From Siphonodentalium dalli (Eukaryota; Mollusca; Scaphopoda; Gadilida; Siphonodentaliidae): a DNA stretch of 64,000 bases. The stretch lies in assembly GCA_032622095.1 (NCBI GenBank), contig CP136061.1:136795587-136859586 (forward strand). Reading direction: 5' to 3'. Below are positions 18,301 to 58,500 of the stretch, in pieces. Every line of letters begins with the position of its first letter. Position 1 is the stretch's first letter. Made by a program: the position numbers and the translations under genes. Below the pieces are notes generated by a model, which was given only the letters and a program-made list of their open reading frames with translations, had not been told where the DNA came from and ran no database searches.

Positions 18301-21300
18301 TTATTCCCTCGTTTTCTTTTAAAAAGCAATAGCTTGTTTGGAGATATGACATGCCAGCGACGATTCGTTTCCGTGCTATAATGAAGTTGTGCTAATAAAT
18401 GCAGATTAAGCTAAATATGGTGGCAATCGCATGTGTCTATGAACTAAAAAGTGCATATTCTACACTATGAAAATTCACCCATGTGCAACATCATACAGAA
18501 ATGTGTGGAACAATCACAAAATTTAAATCACCAAATGATCACGTGACTAACATGGAGATACTGCCATATAGCACACATTTTAGAATTCACAAACACAAAA
18601 CAGAAGTCACGTGGACAACCTGAAGCGTCCGATTGGCTGCTGTTGGACATACGACCTCATAGCACGAATAATTGTAAAGATCGCTGGAGATACGACATTT
18701 GCTTCACTGGTTTGTGCGAATATTTGTCATCCAATGCAAGGACAGTTTGGCCCATCGGATTGGATTTTTTCTCACGATTCGAATGGTATCAAATACTCAT
18801 TTCCCGCCAAAATGGATATACGACATTATAGCACTGATCAGTCGAGATTTTGTCAACCCGCGGGAAGCCACCAAAAGATTGAAAATAAATAGTTTTGATG
18901 TATATGAGCCACATACATGTATATGAGCCAACTATCAACTGCATCCACCACTCACAACTTCCATTATGTGATAAGCTGGGCAGAGTCTACCATTTTCGTT
19001 TTGGAACCATATTAGATAAAATTTATTGTTTCTTTTTGTCTATTTGGTCTATTTGATCAATTATTTTGGAGACAAGATCTGTTCATCCCTAAATATCAAA
19101 TGTGACCAGAACCCCAAAGTCGATTTTGGTTAAATTTCATACCACATTCGTTATAACTTATTAGTGAAGGACCAGAGTAAACTATGATCTAATCTATTAG
19201 AAATGTCATTGCTGTAATGATCAGTTGACACGATCATTGAAAGAATATACCCATTGTTTCCCAGTTCAGAGAGCAACAAGTGATAAACAGAAGTGATAGA
19301 AAATAGTATTTTTCACATCGGGTGGCCATTTTGGCAGCCATTTTTGGTACTGATATTTAAGTTTTTACATAGAGCTAGCATAATGGCATCATAAAGAGCT
19401 ATACATTCGTATTTATTTAGTCAATTTTATTCATCAACCACTACTTATAATGGATTGAATGACACTGTGATCAATATCCGCCATTTTCCATATTTTGACC
19501 GCCATTTTGGCAGCCATTTTGAGACAAAACGCCAATTTGGGTTTCATTGAATTGGAGTATTTATAGATATTGGTATGCCCAACTTACATTGTACAGTTCT
19601 GTCCATTTCTTGTTGATATATGACTAATCACAATGGAGAGTTTTGTGGAATTTTATACCGCGTTCTGTAAAATCGAATTTTTGAGGGTGTAGATGAGTCT
19701 GGGACCCCATTTATGGTATCTTTCATTGCTCCAATGATGAATTAACATGAATATGACTAATCAATGTCGCCAGTCTGAACCATTATCAAACAACAGGAAT
19801 TGATCTTTAAGATATTAGGCAAAAACTTCAAATGTTCTAGTTTAGGCCGCCATTTTGGCGGCCATCTGGGACGATGGGTTCCATTTTTGCCATAAACAGG
19901 TGGCACAACATTTTACCTTTGCAAAAATGTATACATTTGTATACATATGACAACATTTGTTCTCACTGTTATCGAATTAATTTCAGTCAGAGTATCTTTT
20001 GACTAACGGCAGCCATGTTGGACGCCATGTTGGATCCTGAATTTTGCCCAAAGCGGATTTTAGCGGATTTTGGATATGTTATACACGAGATTCTCCCGCG
20101 TCGAATGACACCAAAACCGCTTCTATACCAATTTCTTCCGGGTCGAACCCTCTGACGACCACACTATAGGTGGGTGTTATTCAATGATAGTTGTTGTTCG
20201 ATGGATATAGAGAAATATTTCTTTAAAATGGGCATGTTTTAAACTAACATTTTACATTTACAGAGTCTTGTCAAACAAAATCTTGTCAAAGCTCCTATCA
20301 GTGACGTTGTAGCTAAAGTCGTCTTGGAGAATGAAGCTAGTTCATTGATTCCACAATATCCAAAACCAGATGTCCTGCAGATGTTACCTTACAAACCTAA
20401 GGTGTTTCCTCGTAAGTATTCAACCTACAGTCTATTATTTATGCATGTGACAACTAACAAAAACTATTTAAACTTGAAACCAATTGATCTTCGTAAAAAC
20501 TCTAATGAAAGTTTAATAAAGCGCTAGACCTTTACTGCAGGTTATCTGAGTGTTGAAGGTTTTCTCTGGAGTTTTTTCTCGATTTTCTTGCCTTCCTCGC
20601 CAACTTCAACACTCAGATATGGCCTCGAGTGTTTTCACTCTCCGATGTCACCAGTGACACAGCCTAAGCACAGTGTATTTTCACTCTACGTACACCCCCA
20701 ACCACTGGGGATGAACAAGAAGGACTTTTAGTCGATTTATTTATTATTCCTTTCCTTTTTACTATTCTTGTTCATACCACGGCCACCCCTGCTCAGTGAC
20801 CAGACGTCATAAACGTCCGCTACTATATCAACACGTATCGCCGTATCAGAGAACGGCATTCGCAGATCTCTCTATATACACACCATGTTCTTCCACTGTT
20901 CGGAATGCACCAACCGGTATCCACACACCGATCCAGTTTGAGTGGCAATGTCTGAGAAATACATAGACATACGAAGGTCAAGCACCCTACGTTTACTGTC
21001 TCACTATCTTTGCACGCTAGTACGACATTAACCCATTGAATCACATCTACGATTATAACTCACGACGTTGGTAACCGATCAACAAAATCAACAACTGGAG
21101 GGAACCACTCTCTATATAGTAAGCGCACGCAGGGAATCCACAACTCCCGATGAGCGGATTTATTGAAAATTACGGAACAGCCCGTAATTTAGCAATAGCA
21201 ACGAATCAACTAACTGCATGGTGTGTATATCCCAAATAAAATTTATCACATAGATCTGTTGTGATTTACTATTAAATACATCTATTTTCACAACACAGTA

Positions 21301-24300
21301 GCATTTGTCACTTCTCCCTCCACGGTCCAATAAACCATCTTCCACAAAATTCGCCAGAGGATCCAAGCAGAACGCCTTTATCACCCAAACATCGTAAGGT
21401 ATAGTATCCTTTTTGATTGGTCTTCTCCCACCCACATCGCCCAACTAAGCACGTCGCCAACCTCGACCTTCCAGTATGTTTCCGTACCATTCAATTTCAT
21501 ACCATTAAACCTCCAACAACAGACACTCGTTGTTACCCGCACGTCAAAACTTACCAACGCCAACTAATGGCTCATTTTACGGAACTAAACCATTGTTACC
21601 CGCATACCTAAACGGCTACACATCCAGCCAAACACACCCCCCCATACCCAACCGTCCACTCGGCAAATACCCGCACTACCGATGTTACCCGCACTCCTAC
21701 TTCCGTGACTTCGTGCTTTCCCACCACAAACGCCAGATACCCACACTTGTTACCCGCAATTTTGGGAATGCATCACTACCATCACCACGTCGATTACCCG
21801 CACCAATTACCCGCATTTACAATGCCCCACACCACACAGGATAAACGCCAATACGAACCCCTTACCCGCATTTGTTACCCGCATTTCCCATCATCCTTTT
21901 CACAACCCCTTGACCCTTCAATACTGACCAATCAAATCGGAGACTCATAACAAACAGTATATAAGGCGAGCAAAATCCTCAATAAATCTCACGCCAAACT
22001 CGGTCCTGATGAAGTTAAACAATAACGAAAGCGCTAGACCTTTACTGCAGGTTATCTGAGTGTTGAAGGTTTTCTCTGGAGTTTTTTCTCGATTTTCTTG
22101 TCTAATGAATGTTTGAAAACCAATATTTCCAAATAAAAATGGCTATGAAGCTTGGATCCATGACCACTCTATATATATATTTTTATGTTTTGTTTGACTT
22201 TCAGCTCCCGGTGCTCACATCGTCCCCGGCGGTGTGTTTCCTCCTCCGCCAGCAGCGGCTGAGTTGATCAGTGTGTTACCACCTCCATCATGTTTCCAGG
22301 TGGGTATCTTAAAGGAGTAGTTACAGTAATGCCCTAAATAATCGACTCCTTAACCACATCAGAATTATGGGTCATTTGTCAGGATTTAGTCGGAAATATG
22401 GCTTGTTGCCATTCATCGGAAAGCTCTCAGTGAGAGCGTTATGATGAATGGCAACAAGCCATATTTCAGACTAAATCCTGAAAAATTACCCATAATTCTG
22501 TTGTGGTTAAGGAGCCGATTATTTAGGGCATTACTGTATTCAGTGAAACTAAATGAATCAAACTTACCACACTGTTTTTGGTACAAATGAGAAAATTACA
22601 TCCTGAGATTGGTTTGGCAGTATTTAGGGCATTACTGTACATGCCCTTTATAATTTATATTTCAGTGCTCACTTTGTGATGGCTTCATTACCCCATATAT
22701 GATAATTTTTGAGTACCCTCATCTTCACCCTCATTGTGGTATTTCAGAACCCACATTGTAATCTTTCAGTAGTCTCCTGATATTTCAGTAACAGCATTGT
22801 ATTTCTAGTTGAACATTTGACTATTAGTGCATTTGTGGAAGTAACTGTTTTATATATACGTGTACCATCACTATGGACTATTTCTACCCTAATTTACCAA
22901 TAAATCAGTGAAAAGATTACTTTTTGTCATATCAATTGCTGTGAAACCTTTAAGCAAAAACGAATGGAGGATAAAAAGGGTCTTTTTGTCTGTGAAGAGT
23001 ATGACCTGAATAAGTCTTACCAAGGCAATGAAAGTACATGTTCCATCTCAAAAGTATTTCATAATGTTATTGACATAATTTGACTCCCTTAACTAGGCAA
23101 ATTATGTAACAAAAATAACAACTTATAGTCATGATTTGAGGCTCCTGTCCACCACGTCCTTTAGCTCTTCTACCTCATAGAATGAAAAATCCCTCTGCTT
23201 GAGAGTTAAAAATTATGCTAACATTAGAACAAACTATATTGAAATGATATTAGCCTTATTCCCAATAAACCAGGAATACGATACTCGCCTCCTTTATTGA
23301 TATTCCAGACATATCTCTTCAAAAACTCAACATTGCTTTTAAAATCAGATTTATCACTGTTTGGACTCATAATATCTATGAAGTATGCATGAACAAATAA
23401 TATAAAGCGTCCCATATTTAATATGAATATGAGTGTAATATGTTCCTTTGATAATTTTGCCATTTCACAGTATCTACAGAATGGGAATATATTTTGAATT
23501 TTTTGATTATTTGAATTTCAGGGACCATTTGTCATCATGGATAAATTCATTGATCACCTGGTTAATTGCAAAATCCCAGATGGTAAGTCTGAATTTGAGC
23601 TATAAAATGTAAAATATATCAATGATTCAATTGTAATGAATATGAACAACTTATTTAGACGTTTGTTGACCCAAAAGGGATCAGATTGCTTTATAATATT
23701 ATACTTAGCCCACAACAATTTCCATTTGTTGATTAAATAACAATTCCCAACCAGGTATTGCAATAATAATTTCATGGAGGCCATATTAGAAATTATGTCA
23801 TGTCAGTTCCATACTACTTTTCAAGAATGGGTACAAATGTGCTAAATGTCACATGTCTGTCACATGGTTCATGCATGTCCATCTCATGTTCCACTGTGGT
23901 TGTTTTGTGAAATATCTCTTTGAAGATCCTCTATATAATATATTGACGCTGATTTAAAAAGACTAAAACTAGACTTGGTATCTACAATAATAATTTCTAT
24001 TTCCTCTGATTTATTAAATGGGGTATATTGTATTTCGAGCTATAGTCATCACTCCTCGTCCGTCCGCCATCCATCCATCCGTCCGTTCATCCATCTTTCA
24101 ACAATTTTTAAACATCTTCTCCAGAACCATAAGACCGAATGGGTTCATATTGGATGTTTCCTAGGTGACTCACATTCAGATTTGTTCAAATCAGATCACT
24201 GGGTCAAATAGTTGTGAAGCCAGGCCATAACTCTTTCCCTCCATAGTAATTCTGAAAACAACTTCTTCTCAAGTACCATTTGGCCGAATGGGTTCATAGT

Positions 24301-37217: not shown

Positions 37218-38440
37218 TCAAAGAAACCTGGAAATATTTTGTGGAATTTTGCTCTTGACTGATTTCTTCAACAAGGCTTTGCTGAAATCAAATTTACTAG
37301 CTTCAGGGCCATCTTCACTTATCCTCATCAGGTCATTCAATGAACTATTGTTCAGTGATGTCCTGTGCTTTGACTTGATGCGATTGTCGGTTGAAAAACC
37401 CCTCTCACGTGTCACACTGGATACAGGCAATGTTACAGCAATTCTCATTAATGACAACAAATCTGGCACAATATCAAAATGTTTGCTATCAATAATTTGA
37501 ACAAGTTCACTGAAATGTGTCTCAGTAGGGTAACTTCCAACAATCAAACGTTTATATTTCAAATACTGCAGTTTACAATCAACTTTATCAAGAGAGAAAT
37601 GATCACATATCTTCAACAAATCCTCAATTCCAAATTTGACAAAATCATCTGAAGTACAAGCATTTAATATGGGCACAGGCATGAGTACATTCATTTTCTC
37701 CACAACAGACATATCGACAAAACGTTCTTTTAAGTTGGAGACACCAGACCGATCATAAGTGTTCATCGTTGATTTCATTAAGTCCTTCTGCTGGTTGTAA
37801 TGTGTCAATCCAATGACCAAAGAATTATCATCAGTGTCACTCTTGGTTTTGTCACTTGTTGAGTTAAAGCCATCGAACCCGTCAACATTTAACTTTGTTC
37901 TCACTGACAACAGAATGGGTGGACTCTTTGTTTGCACGTGTGTAGGTCGTATTGTCATCTGAGTCCTGTTTACACACAAAGAAATATAATTTGTCCATAT
38001 GAACCATCCATGACCAGTAAATCCGATAAAGCGGCACATGCACTGTCCACGGACGGCATGATGCGACTGATGTCTAACACTTCCGTTTGAAACACCTTGG
38101 TACGTTTCGTCAATAACGGCAATATGTCCATTAGCATATGGGTAATTCCAATGAATTTGAATTGTCGAACTTCCTTCAGAATTCCTTTGGCAACTGGTGA
38201 TGGGTCATCTTCCAACACGGTGACCAACGCAGGATATGTCCTGTATAAAATTTCAACTGCTCTGCCCAAACTGAGCCACCGAACAGCATGCAGTTGCGTG
38301 AATTTTAGTGTTGACACACTGTTGGTTATACATCTGCCACTCATTAAAAAATATATCCTCTGAGTTGTCTGTTCCTGGAAATAGAGTGCCATTGTCATAA
38401 TTATGGTGGCTGTCTCATTATGCTGAGCTGAATCAATTTA
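37218..38440 (-). pseudogene. hAT-family transposase remnant (C-terminal half)
   Basis: Two minus-strand frames read as one protein in a known order. The frame from 38398 to ~37990 contains AVRWLSLGRAVEILYRTYPA, 'KGILKEVRQFKF' and 'HMLMDILPLLTK...DISRIMPSVDSA'. The frame from ~38000 to 37218 contains 'LLSLMRIAVTLPVSSVTRER', GFST and NDLMRISEDGPE, the hAT dimerisation domain in ZNF862/KIAA1586-like style. The frame changes near 37970-38010, and a TAA lies upstream at ~38440. No BED zinc finger or N-terminal catalytic part is seen. It cannot encode an active transposase as it stands, and could be an old host-gene-like relic instead. Confidence 0.8.
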
Positions 38441-52593: not shown

Positions 52594-55500
52594 TAGGGGA
52601 GACTGGGGAGAACTGGGACAATTTATAAATTTAACCAATTATTTTGGTAATTGTAGATAACTGCTGAAAGGCTGTATGGTATTAACAAACACACTGGATA
52701 CACGAACACATTGGATGATATCGTCTGTCTGATTAGCATTTTACAAGGGAGATAACTCTCAATTAAATTAAATGTTTTTTGGGGGGTGAATTGGGCCAGT
52801 GTGGGGAGATGTGGGTCATTTGGTGGGTCAAAGTGGGACGACCAATTGGTGCTTAAATAAACAATATTCTCAATATAAATTTATAAATTTGGATGCTAAA
52901 TATCATCATAACAGAGAAATTGAATATCAAAGATATTTGAGATGTTCGCCTCAGGACAGATTAAACCTGCAGGCAAACATACTTAGTAATTTCACATGAG
53001 TCCCATGATTTGCATTCTCAATAACATAATTTATTGTAAGAAATATATGTACGGTATATGCATGTATAGCTAGTATACATGTAAATATGTTTGCATGAAT
53101 TGCATATGATGGCAATGACTTCATTCATTAGACTAATACATTTGACTATATACATGTGCATGTAATCCTGCATATGGCATGCTTGGACAATTTTGACAGC
53201 CTACCAATTTTGAATGGATTCTAGCAAGGGACGTGGCTAGAGCATCTCCTTTTGGGGAGGGGTCCACTTTAGAATTTCACACTCCATAACCAGACCCACA
53301 AATTTCCATATTTGAGAAATCCTATCTGCACCATTCTAGTTGGGGAGCCCGCATATGTTCTATTTACACTTTTACGTACAAAAAGTTTGACCCCCTAAAG
53401 TTGGTACCGATAATCGAACATTCTGAAAAAACCGATTTCTTAAGTTGTGCATTCCTGGGGTTTAGGGGCCGCTGAACCCCAAAAAGTGCAAAAAATCACT
53501 TCTATTTACACTTCCGCGTACATCGATGAATTTTGGTTTGATGATACTCATAAATGTACTGATTAAGAAAACACAACTTAAGAAAGGGATTTTCCTGGGG
53601 TTTTCAGATAAGAAAGGTGGTCCCATGCTGAACCCCAAAACGTGATTTTTCACTTTTTTTTACACTTTCGCGTACATCCATAATTTTTGGTCTCAAAGTA
53701 CTTTGATATATACTAATTATAAAAACACAACTTAAGAAGCAACTTTTCCTGGGGTTTTAAGATAAGAAGGGGGTCATCGGGTCACCCCTCAAAACGTAAA
53801 AAATAACTTTTATTTACATGATTGCATTCATCCAACGTGTGTGTATGTGCACTATTACAACCAATACATCCCTAAATCGATACGATCAACTATATATATT
53901 CATGTCGTTTTCTGATAAGAACGAGACTTGTACCCCCCCCCCCCCCCCCACAACCCGATCCATTTTCTAGAACTATAAATGAGCCAGTTTTATGAAAATT
54001 ATAGCGGGAAAATATAGTAAAATGTATACAAATGTATATATTTTCGGGAAGCTAAGACTTAATGACGCTTTTTTGGGCCAAAATTGAAACTCACCATCAT
54101 AGATGGCCGCCAAAATGGCCGCCGGAAGTTGAAAATATTACATTTTTTCACAAATATCTTCTAGATCAATTCATGTTGTTTGGAACTGGTTGAGTAATGC
54201 AACTTTATTTTGTGTTTTGTATATTAACTGATCATTGGAGCAATTAAATATGCAATTATTGGGGTCCTAACCCCTTCCGATCCCTCAAAAATTCGATTGT
54301 ACAGAATGCGGTATAAAATTTCACAAAAAATCACAATTGGGATTCTAGTCATATTTCAACAAGAAATGAACAGAACTTTACAATGTAAGTGAGGCATATC
54401 ATTACCTATGAATATTCCAAATCACTGGAACCAAAATTCTTACTTTGGCTCAAAATGGCTGCCAATATGGCCGCCAAAATATGGAAAATGGTAAATATTA
54501 CACCAACGTGTCCTGCAATCGCGTACAAGTTGTGTTGATGTATACAATTGGCCATTATGCATTCTATACATTGAATACTAACATGTATGGTTAATTGTTA
54601 CTATTTTCACCACTGACATCGTCAAAAATATTGGACTTTTCTCTCACAAACTTGACATAAATATTGGCAAAAATTCAGTTTTCAGGTTTGGACCATTTTT
54701 TCAGGTAAAATATAACTATCTTTGAATTGAAAGGTGTTCATTGTTTTGGTCTAACTTAAATGTGTCACACTACGGTGTTTATGACCAAATTCCTTAAGAT
54801 GGCTTCCAAAATGGCAACCAAATTTGTAAAATGCTAAATTTTTACATATATCCCGAACATTCTCTGCATTATCCGAAAAGGTAGCAAATTGTGACTCACT
54901 TGGTTATTATACGTGTTAGTTAATTAACTGACAACTACATGTTCTATTCCCAGTTGTGCCAGTTCCGTATGGGGCATGACAAATTCATTTTAAAATATGT
55001 AATTTTGCCGAGAACCTCTTTTGTGATTTTGGCCATATTTATTGAAAGGAAATGGGCAGAACTTTGAGACAGAACTGAGCTGGACCATAATCTTTGGCTA
55101 TTCTGGTCCATTATGATAAAAAAAAATGTCAACAGGATACAGTGTGGATGCAAAGATCGTAGCCAGGGAGTTACTCTGTGATCATATGTGAGGTGAATAG
55201 GTATACAGGGAGTTATTGCATGTCATGACTGGTGTGAGTGGGTATACAATGAGTGACTATATGGTTATGAGTGGGTTGTCCGTGGTCAGATGCATCTAGG
55301 TATACAGGGAGAGGTCATGGTCAGGTGTGGGATGAATCGGTATGCATGTAGTGACTGCATGGTGTATTCTTGTGTATATCCAGTACGGTGCACCCGGTGT
55401 GCCTGTATGGCCATTGGTGTGGTGTATGGATATAGCTACATGGTCATCTATGTGTTGATTATGTATATATGGAGGGACTGTAAGGTCATGGTGGGATGCA

Positions 55501-58500
55501 CATGTGTTGTCTGTATGATCATGGATGGGGTGTGTGGATAAATAGGTAGTGATTTTATGGTTACGGGTAATGTGTATATTTATACATGGAATGACTGTAC
55601 GGTCATGATTGAATATGAATACCTGGAGTAAGCGGGTGGACATTATCGAGCGTGTGGGTACATAGGGAGTGTCCTTGTGGTAACGGGTGGGATGTATATT
55701 TATATATATCGTGGATGTATTATCATTGGTGGGTGTATAGGGCTTAGCTGTATTATCATGGAAGGCGTGTATGATTATACAGTGAATTGCTGAATTGTCA
55801 TGTGTGAGGTGTATATGCAAGTGTGGATTGTTTGAGTGGTCGTATTGCTGACATGTCTGTCTGTATTAGTATATCTTGAGTGGCTATTCGGCTATGGTGT
55901 GATAAATAGGGATACAGGGATTGACATGGCCAATGTTGAGGTGAATATGTATACAAGGATTGACCATGATCGTGTATGAATGTTTTGAATAGGTACACAC
56001 GGGGTGACTATATGGCCATAGGTCAGATGAAGGAGTATACCAGGTAACATGGGTGAGGGTATGTGTATGAGGCGAGTGGCTATATGGCCATTGGTGATGT
56101 GCATATGTATACCGGAGTGACTTTATGGTCATTGTTGTGGTGTTGATGTATATATTGATTGACTATTTGACCATGCGTTTAGAGAATATGTATACAGGGG
56201 ATGACCTTATGGCCAATGGTGAGATGAATGGATATACAAGGAGTGACTATATGGTTATGGGTCATGTTTAGGAGTATACCCGGTGTGTCTGCATTGTGAC
56301 GCGTGGCAGTATGGTCATCCGTGGTCATGGGTCAGGTTTACATGTATACAGTGGGTCACTATATTGTTATGTCTGTGGTGTTTATGTATATATGTAATGG
56401 CTGTGTGATAATGGATGGCTATCGCTTTCCACGATATGACATGACCTCTCTATTGATTAACATATCCTTGAGTTATTGTGGTAAGCGATAGCCACCCAAG
56501 GTACACATGTACAACCCACGCATTACCCCAGTCACTCCATATGCACATAAACACCACACAAATGACAACATAGTGACCCACTTTATGTACGTACATGTAC
56601 TAGTACACCTGATCATACAGCCATACTTGGTTATACCCGTACATACCACAAATGACGATACAGCCACGAGTCACCATGCATGAACACCAGGTATAACCTA
56701 CACCCGACACATGACCATATAGTCACTCTATGTATACATATTCACTACATTCACGATCATACAGTCACTCATTGTATACATATTCACCCCACCATGGACC
56801 ATACAGCCACTACATGTATACCTATTCGCCATACCCATGACCATAGAGTCAATCCAGGTATACATATGAACATCGATGGTGAGCCCTTCCAGATATACCA
56901 ATATCCGCACATACGACCACTCATAGGTTCCATACTTGCCATACTCATACACGCCATCCATGATAATAAATCTACTCCCCATACACCACCAATGATAACA
57001 CATCCACAACATATATAAATATACGTCTCACCGTTACCAACAGGGCACTCCCTATATACCCATACATCATTCATGACCATACAATAACTCCCTGTATTAT
57101 CTATTACCTATTATCCTCATCTATGACCATAGAGTAACTCCCTGGCTGCCATCTTGGCTTCCACCCTGTATCCAGTTGATAAATTTTTACCATAATGGGC
57201 CAGAATACCCACATATCATGGTTCATCTCAGTTCCGTCTCAAAGTTCTGCCCATTTCCATTCAATAATATGGCCAGAATCACAAAAGAGGTTCTCCGCAA
57301 AATTCCATACTACAACTTTAAAATGAATTTGTCATGCAACTTATTACAATAACCAAGTGAGTCACAATTTGCCACCTTTTTCGGATAACGCAGAGAATAA
57401 TGTTCGGGATAATGTTAACTTTTAACTTTTTACAAATTTGGTTGCCATTTTGGAAGCCATCTTGAGCAATTTAGTCTATAAACACCGTAGTGTGACACAT
57501 TTAAGATAGACCAAAACAATAAACACCTTTCAATCCAATAGTTACATTTTACTTGAACAAATGGTCGAACCTTGAAAAGTGAATTTTTGCCGATATTTAT
57601 GTCAAGTTTGTGAGAGAAAAATCCCATATTTCTGGTGATGTCAGTGGTGACAATAGAAAAAATGATCCATGGTGCATCAGACATGTTAGTAAGCAATGTA
57701 TAGAAAACAGATTAGCCAATTGTGTACATCAACCACAACTTGTAAGCGATTGCAGGACACCCTGGGGCAATATTTACAATTTTCCACATTTTGGCGGCCA
57801 TTTTCGCAGCCATTTTGAGCCAAGGTAAGATTTATGGTTCCAGAGATTTGGAAAATTCATAGGTAATGATATGCCTCACTTACATTACAATGTTCTTTTC
57901 ATTTCTTGTTGAAATATGACTAGAATCCCAATTGTGATTTTTTGTAAAATTTTGTACTGCGTTCTGTAAAATCGAATTTTTGAGGGATCGGAAGGGGTTA
58001 GGACCCCAATAATTGCATATTTAATTGCTCCAATGAGTTAATATACAAAACACAAAATAAAGTTACATTACTCAACCAGTTCCAAACAGCATGAATTGAT
58101 CTAGAAGATATTTGTGAAAAAATGTCATATTTTCAACTTCCGGCGGCCATTTTGGCGGCCATCTTGGATGGTGAGTTTCAATTTTGGCCCAAAAAAGTGT
58201 CATTATGTCTTAGCTTCACGAAAATATATACATTTGTATACCTTTTACTATATTTTCCCGCTATAATTTTCATAAAACTGGCGCATTTATAGTTCTAGAA
58301 AATGGATCGGGTTGTGTGGGGGGGGGGGTCTCGTTCTTATCAGAAAACGACATGAATATATATTTCTTAAGTTGATCGTATCGATTTAGGGATGTATTGG
58401 TTGTAATAGTGCAACGTTCCAGGTGTGTGCGCACACACACACGTTGGACGAATGCAATCATGTAAATAAAAGTGATTTTTTTACGTTTTGAGGGGCGACC

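Follow-up and report, generated by a model that had tools for sequence, protein, structure and literature searches.

A short insertion within an intron of the CSTF3 gene of the scaphopod mollusc Siphonodentalium dalli belongs to a dispersed family that we interpret as a non-autonomous retroelement using Penelope-type machinery in trans, a reading to which we assign a probability of roughly 0.8. The insertion occupies 20515..22100, on the plus strand and in sense orientation, of a 64,000-nucleotide stretch of assembly GCA_032622095.1 (contig CP136061.1, positions 136,795,587 to 136,859,586; hereafter, the window). It is intronic because the exon that follows encodes CSTF3 (match to 6uro_E, cleavage stimulation factor subunit 3, E = 5e-6). 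At its core is a 1510-bp unit extending from one predicted hammerhead ribozyme cut to the next; the base following the predicted cut is called +1. The unit contains no open reading frame (ORF) longer than 112 amino acids and no reverse transcriptase (RT) ORF, and two window ORFs that were tested gave no Pfam match. The single ORF of autonomous Penelope elements, with a telomerase-like RT and a GIY-YIG endonuclease, is likewise absent. An earlier note, made from the sequence alone, had proposed a short non-autonomous element lacking an RT, of Penelope or retrozyme kind and possibly of a new family. Many genomic copies, the absence of an ORF or domain, a minimal hammerhead with a palindromic stem III, and insertions of Penelope type now support that proposal.

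The genome searched comprises 2.2 Gb in nine contigs (contigs and loci carry our own labels, C and L). Scoring was confined to the best candidates of each search, and all copy numbers are therefore lower bounds. A 1600-bp query returned 80 matching stretches (best 40 of 497 candidates scored), the promoter-ribozyme-repeat piece at least 42 matches, and the first 304 bases of the unit at least 51 (40 candidates scored in each case). The search for further copies that the earlier note had called for thus yields at least 40 scored loci, among several hundred candidates. Two sibling elements, with units of 1804 bp and 1738 bp, share the hammerhead type; for each sibling, as for each of the Penelope families discussed below, one or two loci were examined. 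A three-way alignment shows conservation of the hammerhead, of the CCAAT/TATA block, and of ~330 bases at the start of the unit, while the interior has diverged. Upstream of the promoter, the element and both sibling families have an array of TACCCGC motifs. Separately, the segment C5:237820022-238398319 holds 16 near-identical end fragments of the 1804-bp sibling, mostly ending at site B (defined below), ~9-15 kb apart and in both orientations; it is an amplified segment.

Ends of the copies and their pairing

Copies have their 3' ends in two places only. Site A spans +64 to +69 and site B spans +218 to +222, and a separate hairpin holds each of them in its loop (Table 1). Folding of the unit start gives z = -3.4 for the first 100 bases and z = -5.6 for +1..+274. 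The arms of hairpin 1 differ in siblings yet still pair: L087 (GTGATTGAG) has perfect 9-bp arms, and L086 has longer arms with mismatches. Hairpin 2 is also kept in siblings. The 1804-bp sibling ends at +67/68 and at +238, the latter within the loop of its own hairpin 2. The arrangement of sites A and B corresponds to the 'tail' of Penelope elements, here 153 bp long. Target duplications flank 26 of 39 copies; they are 11-16 bp long (mode 14 bp) and 78% A+T, and shuffled flanks gave 0. Pseudo-long-terminal repeats (pLTRs), that is, direct repeats that arise from a partial tandem structure, are present. Many copies combine an inverted piece at the 5' end with a target duplication; the window copy has direct repeats only.

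In many copies, the element sequence is inverted in the middle, so that both flanks join 3' ends of the element. Among unique two-ended copies whose two junctions are both of type A or B, 11 of 11 pair an A with a B. These copies came from the search with the ribozyme-plus-repeat piece and from the first search, and they were chosen without regard to B; L014, L015, and L048 were left out because their inverted piece has neither an A nor a B junction on that side. Single-ended copies in the same set end at A in ~16 cases and at B in 7. Independent choice would therefore predict an A/B fraction of ~0.42, and 11 of 11 would arise by chance with a probability of ~7e-5. The search with the first 304 bases, which is able to show B/B pairs, added only A/B pairs, except for L097, whose second end lies at about +45. 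No A/A or B/B pair occurs among the two-ended copies examined. Strict pairing of this kind, between sites in different hairpins, suggests that the two start sites serve the two DNA strands.

Hammerhead motif and putative 5' ends of the RNA

The hammerhead motif is real, and its sequence predicts a ribozyme. Specifically, the window core consists of stem I (GGTC 22002-22005 with GACC 22037-22040), CTGATGA (22006-22012), stem II (GTTA/TAAC), GAAA (22027-22030), and AGCGCT (22030-22035), with the cut predicted after A22036. A strict hammerhead pattern matches once in the window (0.01 expected), and the related pattern CTGANGA-N6-22-GAAAGCGCTA matches 336 places in the genome, versus 2 for a reversed control. 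The earlier note's hammerhead core is thus present as a motif; its stem II needs amending, as it pairs only with A22013 left unpaired. One unpaired base, usually A, regularly precedes stem II across the hammerhead sequences. Stem II has at least 4 bp in 28 of 34 distinct sequences (32 among the listed genome matches and two from Penelope loci), compared with 6% of shuffled middles. Its pairings vary by family (GTTA/TAAC, GATA/TATC, GATAC/GTATC, GATAT/ATATC, GGTA/TACC, GCAG/CTGC). Within the window-element family, the commonest ribozyme sequence is exact in 34 of 53 ribozyme copies. A different hammerhead family is found at L088 (C3:163051840-163052420), a retrozyme-sized 436-bp tandem with T/T at the base of stem II and without GACC after the cut; it also occurs at C3:244408620 and C3:228556345.

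Insertions may also have captured the 5' ends of the RNAs from which they were copied. In L090 and L091, both complementary DNA (cDNA) arms stop exactly at +1, and the sequences at the joints, AATCT and ATC, match the template on neither side. Head-to-head joints were also sought exhaustively by pattern. With 0-30 bases separating the +7 positions, the scan finds four places, namely these two and two closer joints. With 76-106 bases, it finds two joints, whose arms end near -44 and at -46/-39, and one place that is unrelated; with 31-61 bases, it finds one joint, at other positions. The cDNA arms of L097, L098, and L099 end at -44 to -47 (that of L097 at -46 or -47). If the six relevant joints were distributed uniformly over the 53 positions from -46 to +7, a rough estimate of their probability is ~5e-3 with fully dependent arms and ~2e-6 with independent arms. 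From these few events, the arm stops at ~-46 and +1 look like the ends of the primary and the cleaved RNA, respectively.

Alternatively, the stops at +1 could be strong stops of RT at the hammerhead structure rather than ends of cut RNA, with the ribozyme inactive. We regard this as possible though unlikely. It would fit the extra unpaired A beside stem II, the weak stem III of the monomer, the lack of an Rfam match (see below), and the fact that no RNA reads began at the cut site in Anolis Poseidon (PMC11167929); moreover, exact +1 stops come from only two insertions. A structural stop, however, is expected before stem I, near +5, and scattered, whereas the stops of four arms coincide exactly with the scissile bond, and their joints are untemplated. 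Stem II complementarity and the palindromic stem III are, in addition, kept across families.

Relation to Penelope elements and alternative explanations

Penelope-type GIY-YIG ORFs in tandem arrays are abundant in the genome. Of five sampled Penelope families, two (L081 and L083) have hammerheads that match the window element in architecture and in the extra A and that lie before the ORFs (CTGAAGA-A-GGTA...TACC-GAAACGTT and GGTA...TACT-GAAACGCGTC, with stem I GCTTC/GAGGC). Stem III is self-complementary in all three, AGCGCT in the window element and AACGTT and ACGCGT in the Penelope families, and self-complementarity is what a dimeric ribozyme would need.

The resemblance to the Penelope/Poseidon clade, as known from PAc of Anolis (PMC11167929) and from Adineta vaga (PMC3846280), extends to direct pLTRs from partial tandems, the inverted 5' piece, target duplications in AT-rich DNA, two internal RT start sites with a 'tail' at one end, a minimal hammerhead upstream of the start sites, and a TATA box in the repeat. 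Unlike members of that clade, the element has no RT/GIY-YIG ORF, its start sites lie in two separate hairpins, and its DNA resembles none of the families sampled here. Small hammerhead variants with a short or absent stem III have been tied to Penelope-like elements and proposed to cleave as dimers (Lunse et al. 2017, as cited in PMC7761336); the present motif resembles them in its short stem III, its association with Penelope elements, and its proposed dimeric action. A further parallel is the host gene mobilized by Pen3a between pLTRs in Adineta vaga, where pLTRs alone suffice to move unrelated cargo in trans (PMC3846280); that case is a single event, whereas here there is a dispersed family with siblings.

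L081-type Penelope elements (C1:20276046 to C9:115501721) form tandem arrays with a 4613-bp period on all nine contigs, and dozens of places agree at 100% across 601 bp, which indicates very recent spread. L082 (C7:152670000-152671200; 4893-bp period) and L084/L085 (~4780-bp period) are other families; no hammerhead of the window-element type is found in the parts of them that were read, and the L082 ORF shows a weak GDSL lipase match, below the cutoff. Searches for Penelope insertion ends with pieces of L081 and L083 returned intact tandem copies or remote relatives. A candidate partner was also sought by comparing GIY-YIG hits with the listed hammerhead places on contigs C1-C3; the one neighbor, C1:266327281 (L089), has no Penelope ORF and resembles L088.

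Several observations weigh against a Penelope-driven element with a working ribozyme. Comparison of the unit with spacer regions of the five sampled Penelope families gave no significant similarity, and no autonomous Penelope element with similar DNA was found, in both cases among the fraction of such elements inspected. The 'tail' of 153 bp (170 in the sibling) and the target duplication of ~14 bp exceed the 30-40 bp and 8-10 bp of published Penelope elements. Neither Rfam Hammerhead_1 (RF00163), whose score the earlier note had offered as a check, nor any other Rfam model matches the whole or short stretches, at gathering or at relaxed thresholds up to E 10; the search of the genome with RF00163 also gave no match, without any control giving signal either. 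The +1 footprint derives from two insertions (four arms). Most long copies, finally, read through the ribozyme and contain an intact internal copy, so much of the RNA used as template must be uncut, and the window copy runs 9 nt past the cut, meaning that its own template was uncut there.

A metazoan non-LTR (long terminal repeat) retrozyme is the nearest competing idea: ribozymes would cut unit-length RNA, a host ligase would circularize it, and an RT would copy the circle into tandem DNA. With these elements (PMC7229834, PMC7761336), the family shares non-autonomy, a type I hammerhead, ribozymes spaced at unit length, and a weak palindromic stem III suggestive of a dimer. At L003, L009, and L011, partial tandem copies exceed the length of one unit plus leader, and the 436-bp tandem of L088 is in the same genome. 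Nonetheless, we judge this origin improbable. The 1510-bp unit is four to nine times longer than the 170-400 nt of retrozymes and does not form the tandem units typical of them; most copies are single or partial-tandem, with few multi-unit arrays seen. Metazoan retrozymes are described as lacking promoters (PMC7761336), but the element has a TATA promoter, and arm ends apparently mark the start of transcription; its hammerhead is of the minimal Penelope type, and its insertions record linear ends at -46 and +1.

Mobilization by a long interspersed nuclear element (LINE), with the end structures produced by ordinary twin priming, is less probable still. LINE insertions are generally known to show inverted 5' pieces, 5' truncation, and target duplications of 11-16 bp as well. 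Yet no poly(A) or simple-repeat 3' end is present, and the two fixed 3' ends both lie within hairpins. LINE twin priming uses variable internal positions, whereas the inverted inserts here pair A with B, and unit-spanning direct repeats with a minimal hammerhead are Penelope traits. As for a relic of an LTR retrotransposon (a terminal-repeat retrotransposon in miniature, or a solo LTR pair) with a chance hammerhead, it would account for terminal direct repeats and for a promoter near the right repeat, but it is refuted by the structure of the copies: inverted two-ended copies, variable left ends, and a hammerhead in hundreds of copies. The target duplication mode of 14 bp also contrasts with 4-6 bp, and no tRNA primer site or polypurine tract was recognized by eye.

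Window copy, proposed mechanism, and implications

The features of the window copy are collected in Table 1. Its direct repeats (20518-20593 and 22028-22103) are 99% identical over 76 bp, the first 73 being identical. These 73-bp repeats, the flanking 14-bp target duplication with its single mismatch, and the CCAAT and TATA boxes are as the earlier note had described them. The note's conclusion that exact repeat identity signals a recent insertion carries little force: both repeats can be copied from one RNA, so their identity is a weak clock. Its remark that only the right end has a full ribozyme is correct for this copy, because the left edge is, judging from relatives, the variable 5' end of the cDNA, here 9 nt upstream of the cut.

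Table 1. Coordinates of the window copy and its features
Feature	Position	Strand	Remarks
Left target-site duplication, TCTAATGAAAGTTT	20501..20514	.	14 bp
Whole inserted element	20515..22100	+	AAT (3 unexplained bases), 9 nt upstream of the cut site, the full 1510-bp unit, and 64-67 bp of the next unit
Left copy of 73-bp direct repeat	20518..20590	+	Opens with 3' half of hammerhead (AAAGCGCTA)
1510-bp unit	20527..22036	+	Predicted ribozyme cut to predicted ribozyme cut; +1 = 20527
Hairpin 1	20543..20619	+	16-bp perfect arms, 20543-20558 / 20604-20619; loop with putative initiation site A (~20593)
Hairpin 2	20708..20778	+	Arms 20708-20721 / 20765-20778; loop with putative initiation site B (20744-20748)
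Array of nine TACCCGCA motifs	21534..21883	+	Upstream of promoter; 9 found, 0.88 expected
CCAAT box in block GACCAATCAAAT	21928..21932	+	Block identical in both sibling families
TATA box, TATATAAG	21958..21965	+	From sequence
Putative transcription start, A in TCA	21991..21991	+	46 nt before the cut (-46); 31-33 bp downstream of TATA box
Predicted minimal type I hammerhead, GGTC-CTGATGA-(A)-GTTA-AACAA-TAAC-GAAA-GCGCTA^GACC	22002..22040	+	Palindromic stem III AGCGCT; predicted cut after 22036
Right copy of 73-bp direct repeat	22028..22100	+	Terminates at site A
Right target-site duplication, TCTAATGAATGTTT	22101..22114	.	14 bp, one mismatch relative to left

Further features lie elsewhere in the window. 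Just past the exon of the same gene, 22322-22538 is a long foldback of two 108-nt arms, 93% complementary and separated by 1 nt; its outer 19 bp (TATTTAGGGCATTACTGTA) reappear at 22621-22639. An ORF on the minus strand at 37218-38437 encodes a hAT family C-terminal dimerization domain (Pfam PF05699, E 1e-7) and is probably a relic of a hAT transposase. At 55296-57018, both strands contain long ORFs of repeated HPTHDHT-like peptides, which are probably translated repeats.

We envision mobilization by Penelope-type machinery as follows. RNA from tandem or partial tandem copies would start at 21991, with the hammerhead in its first ~50 nt. Part of this RNA would be cut at the hammerhead by a dimeric ribozyme formed through AGCGCT, perhaps with the assistance of protein as in Anolis Poseidon. 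A Penelope-type protein would cut AT-rich DNA on both strands, ~14 bp apart, and each DNA strand would prime cDNA synthesis within one of the two hairpin loops. The arms would then extend toward the 5' end of the RNA and be joined mid-way, yielding inverted two-ended inserts; a single arm would yield a 5'-truncated direct copy. The window copy would be of the single-arm kind, primed at A, with copying that continued across a complete unit and ended 9 nt beyond the next cut site.

Precedent exists for parts of this scheme. Penelope reverse transcription starts internally at two sites in a stem-loop, which explains the 'tail', and both DNA strands are cut and extended (PMC11167929). In Adineta, one of the inverted pLTRs carries the 'tail', and pLTRs are enough for cargo to be moved in trans (PMC3846280). 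A more speculative version, which we hold to be doubtful, is that each insertion uses two RNA templates, paired via the palindromic stem III of a dimeric hammerhead, one primed in hairpin 1 and the other in hairpin 2, with cleavage setting the 5' end at which both arms stop and join. If true, this arrangement would explain why A pairs with B though both arms copy +1 to +67.

Reviews call the role of the hammerhead in Penelope-like elements unknown, and in one purified Penelope system cleavage was dispensable and RNA-seq revealed no cleaved RNA ends (PMC11167929). The insertions described here appear to record the cut site exactly, and in vivo cleavage could thus be tested by 5'-end mapping. 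Should the two-template version hold, the Penelope hammerhead would gain a role in reverse transcription. Short nonautonomous Penelope elements have been mentioned in butterflies (PMC6685494), so the general idea of a non-autonomous Penelope is not new; a description of the present design was not found in the literature searched. Penelope elements have also been proposed as helpers of metazoan retrozymes (PMC7229834, PMC7761336). This family would offer a non-autonomous link between Penelope elements and retrozymes, a connection proposed so far mainly from co-occurrence (PMC7229834).

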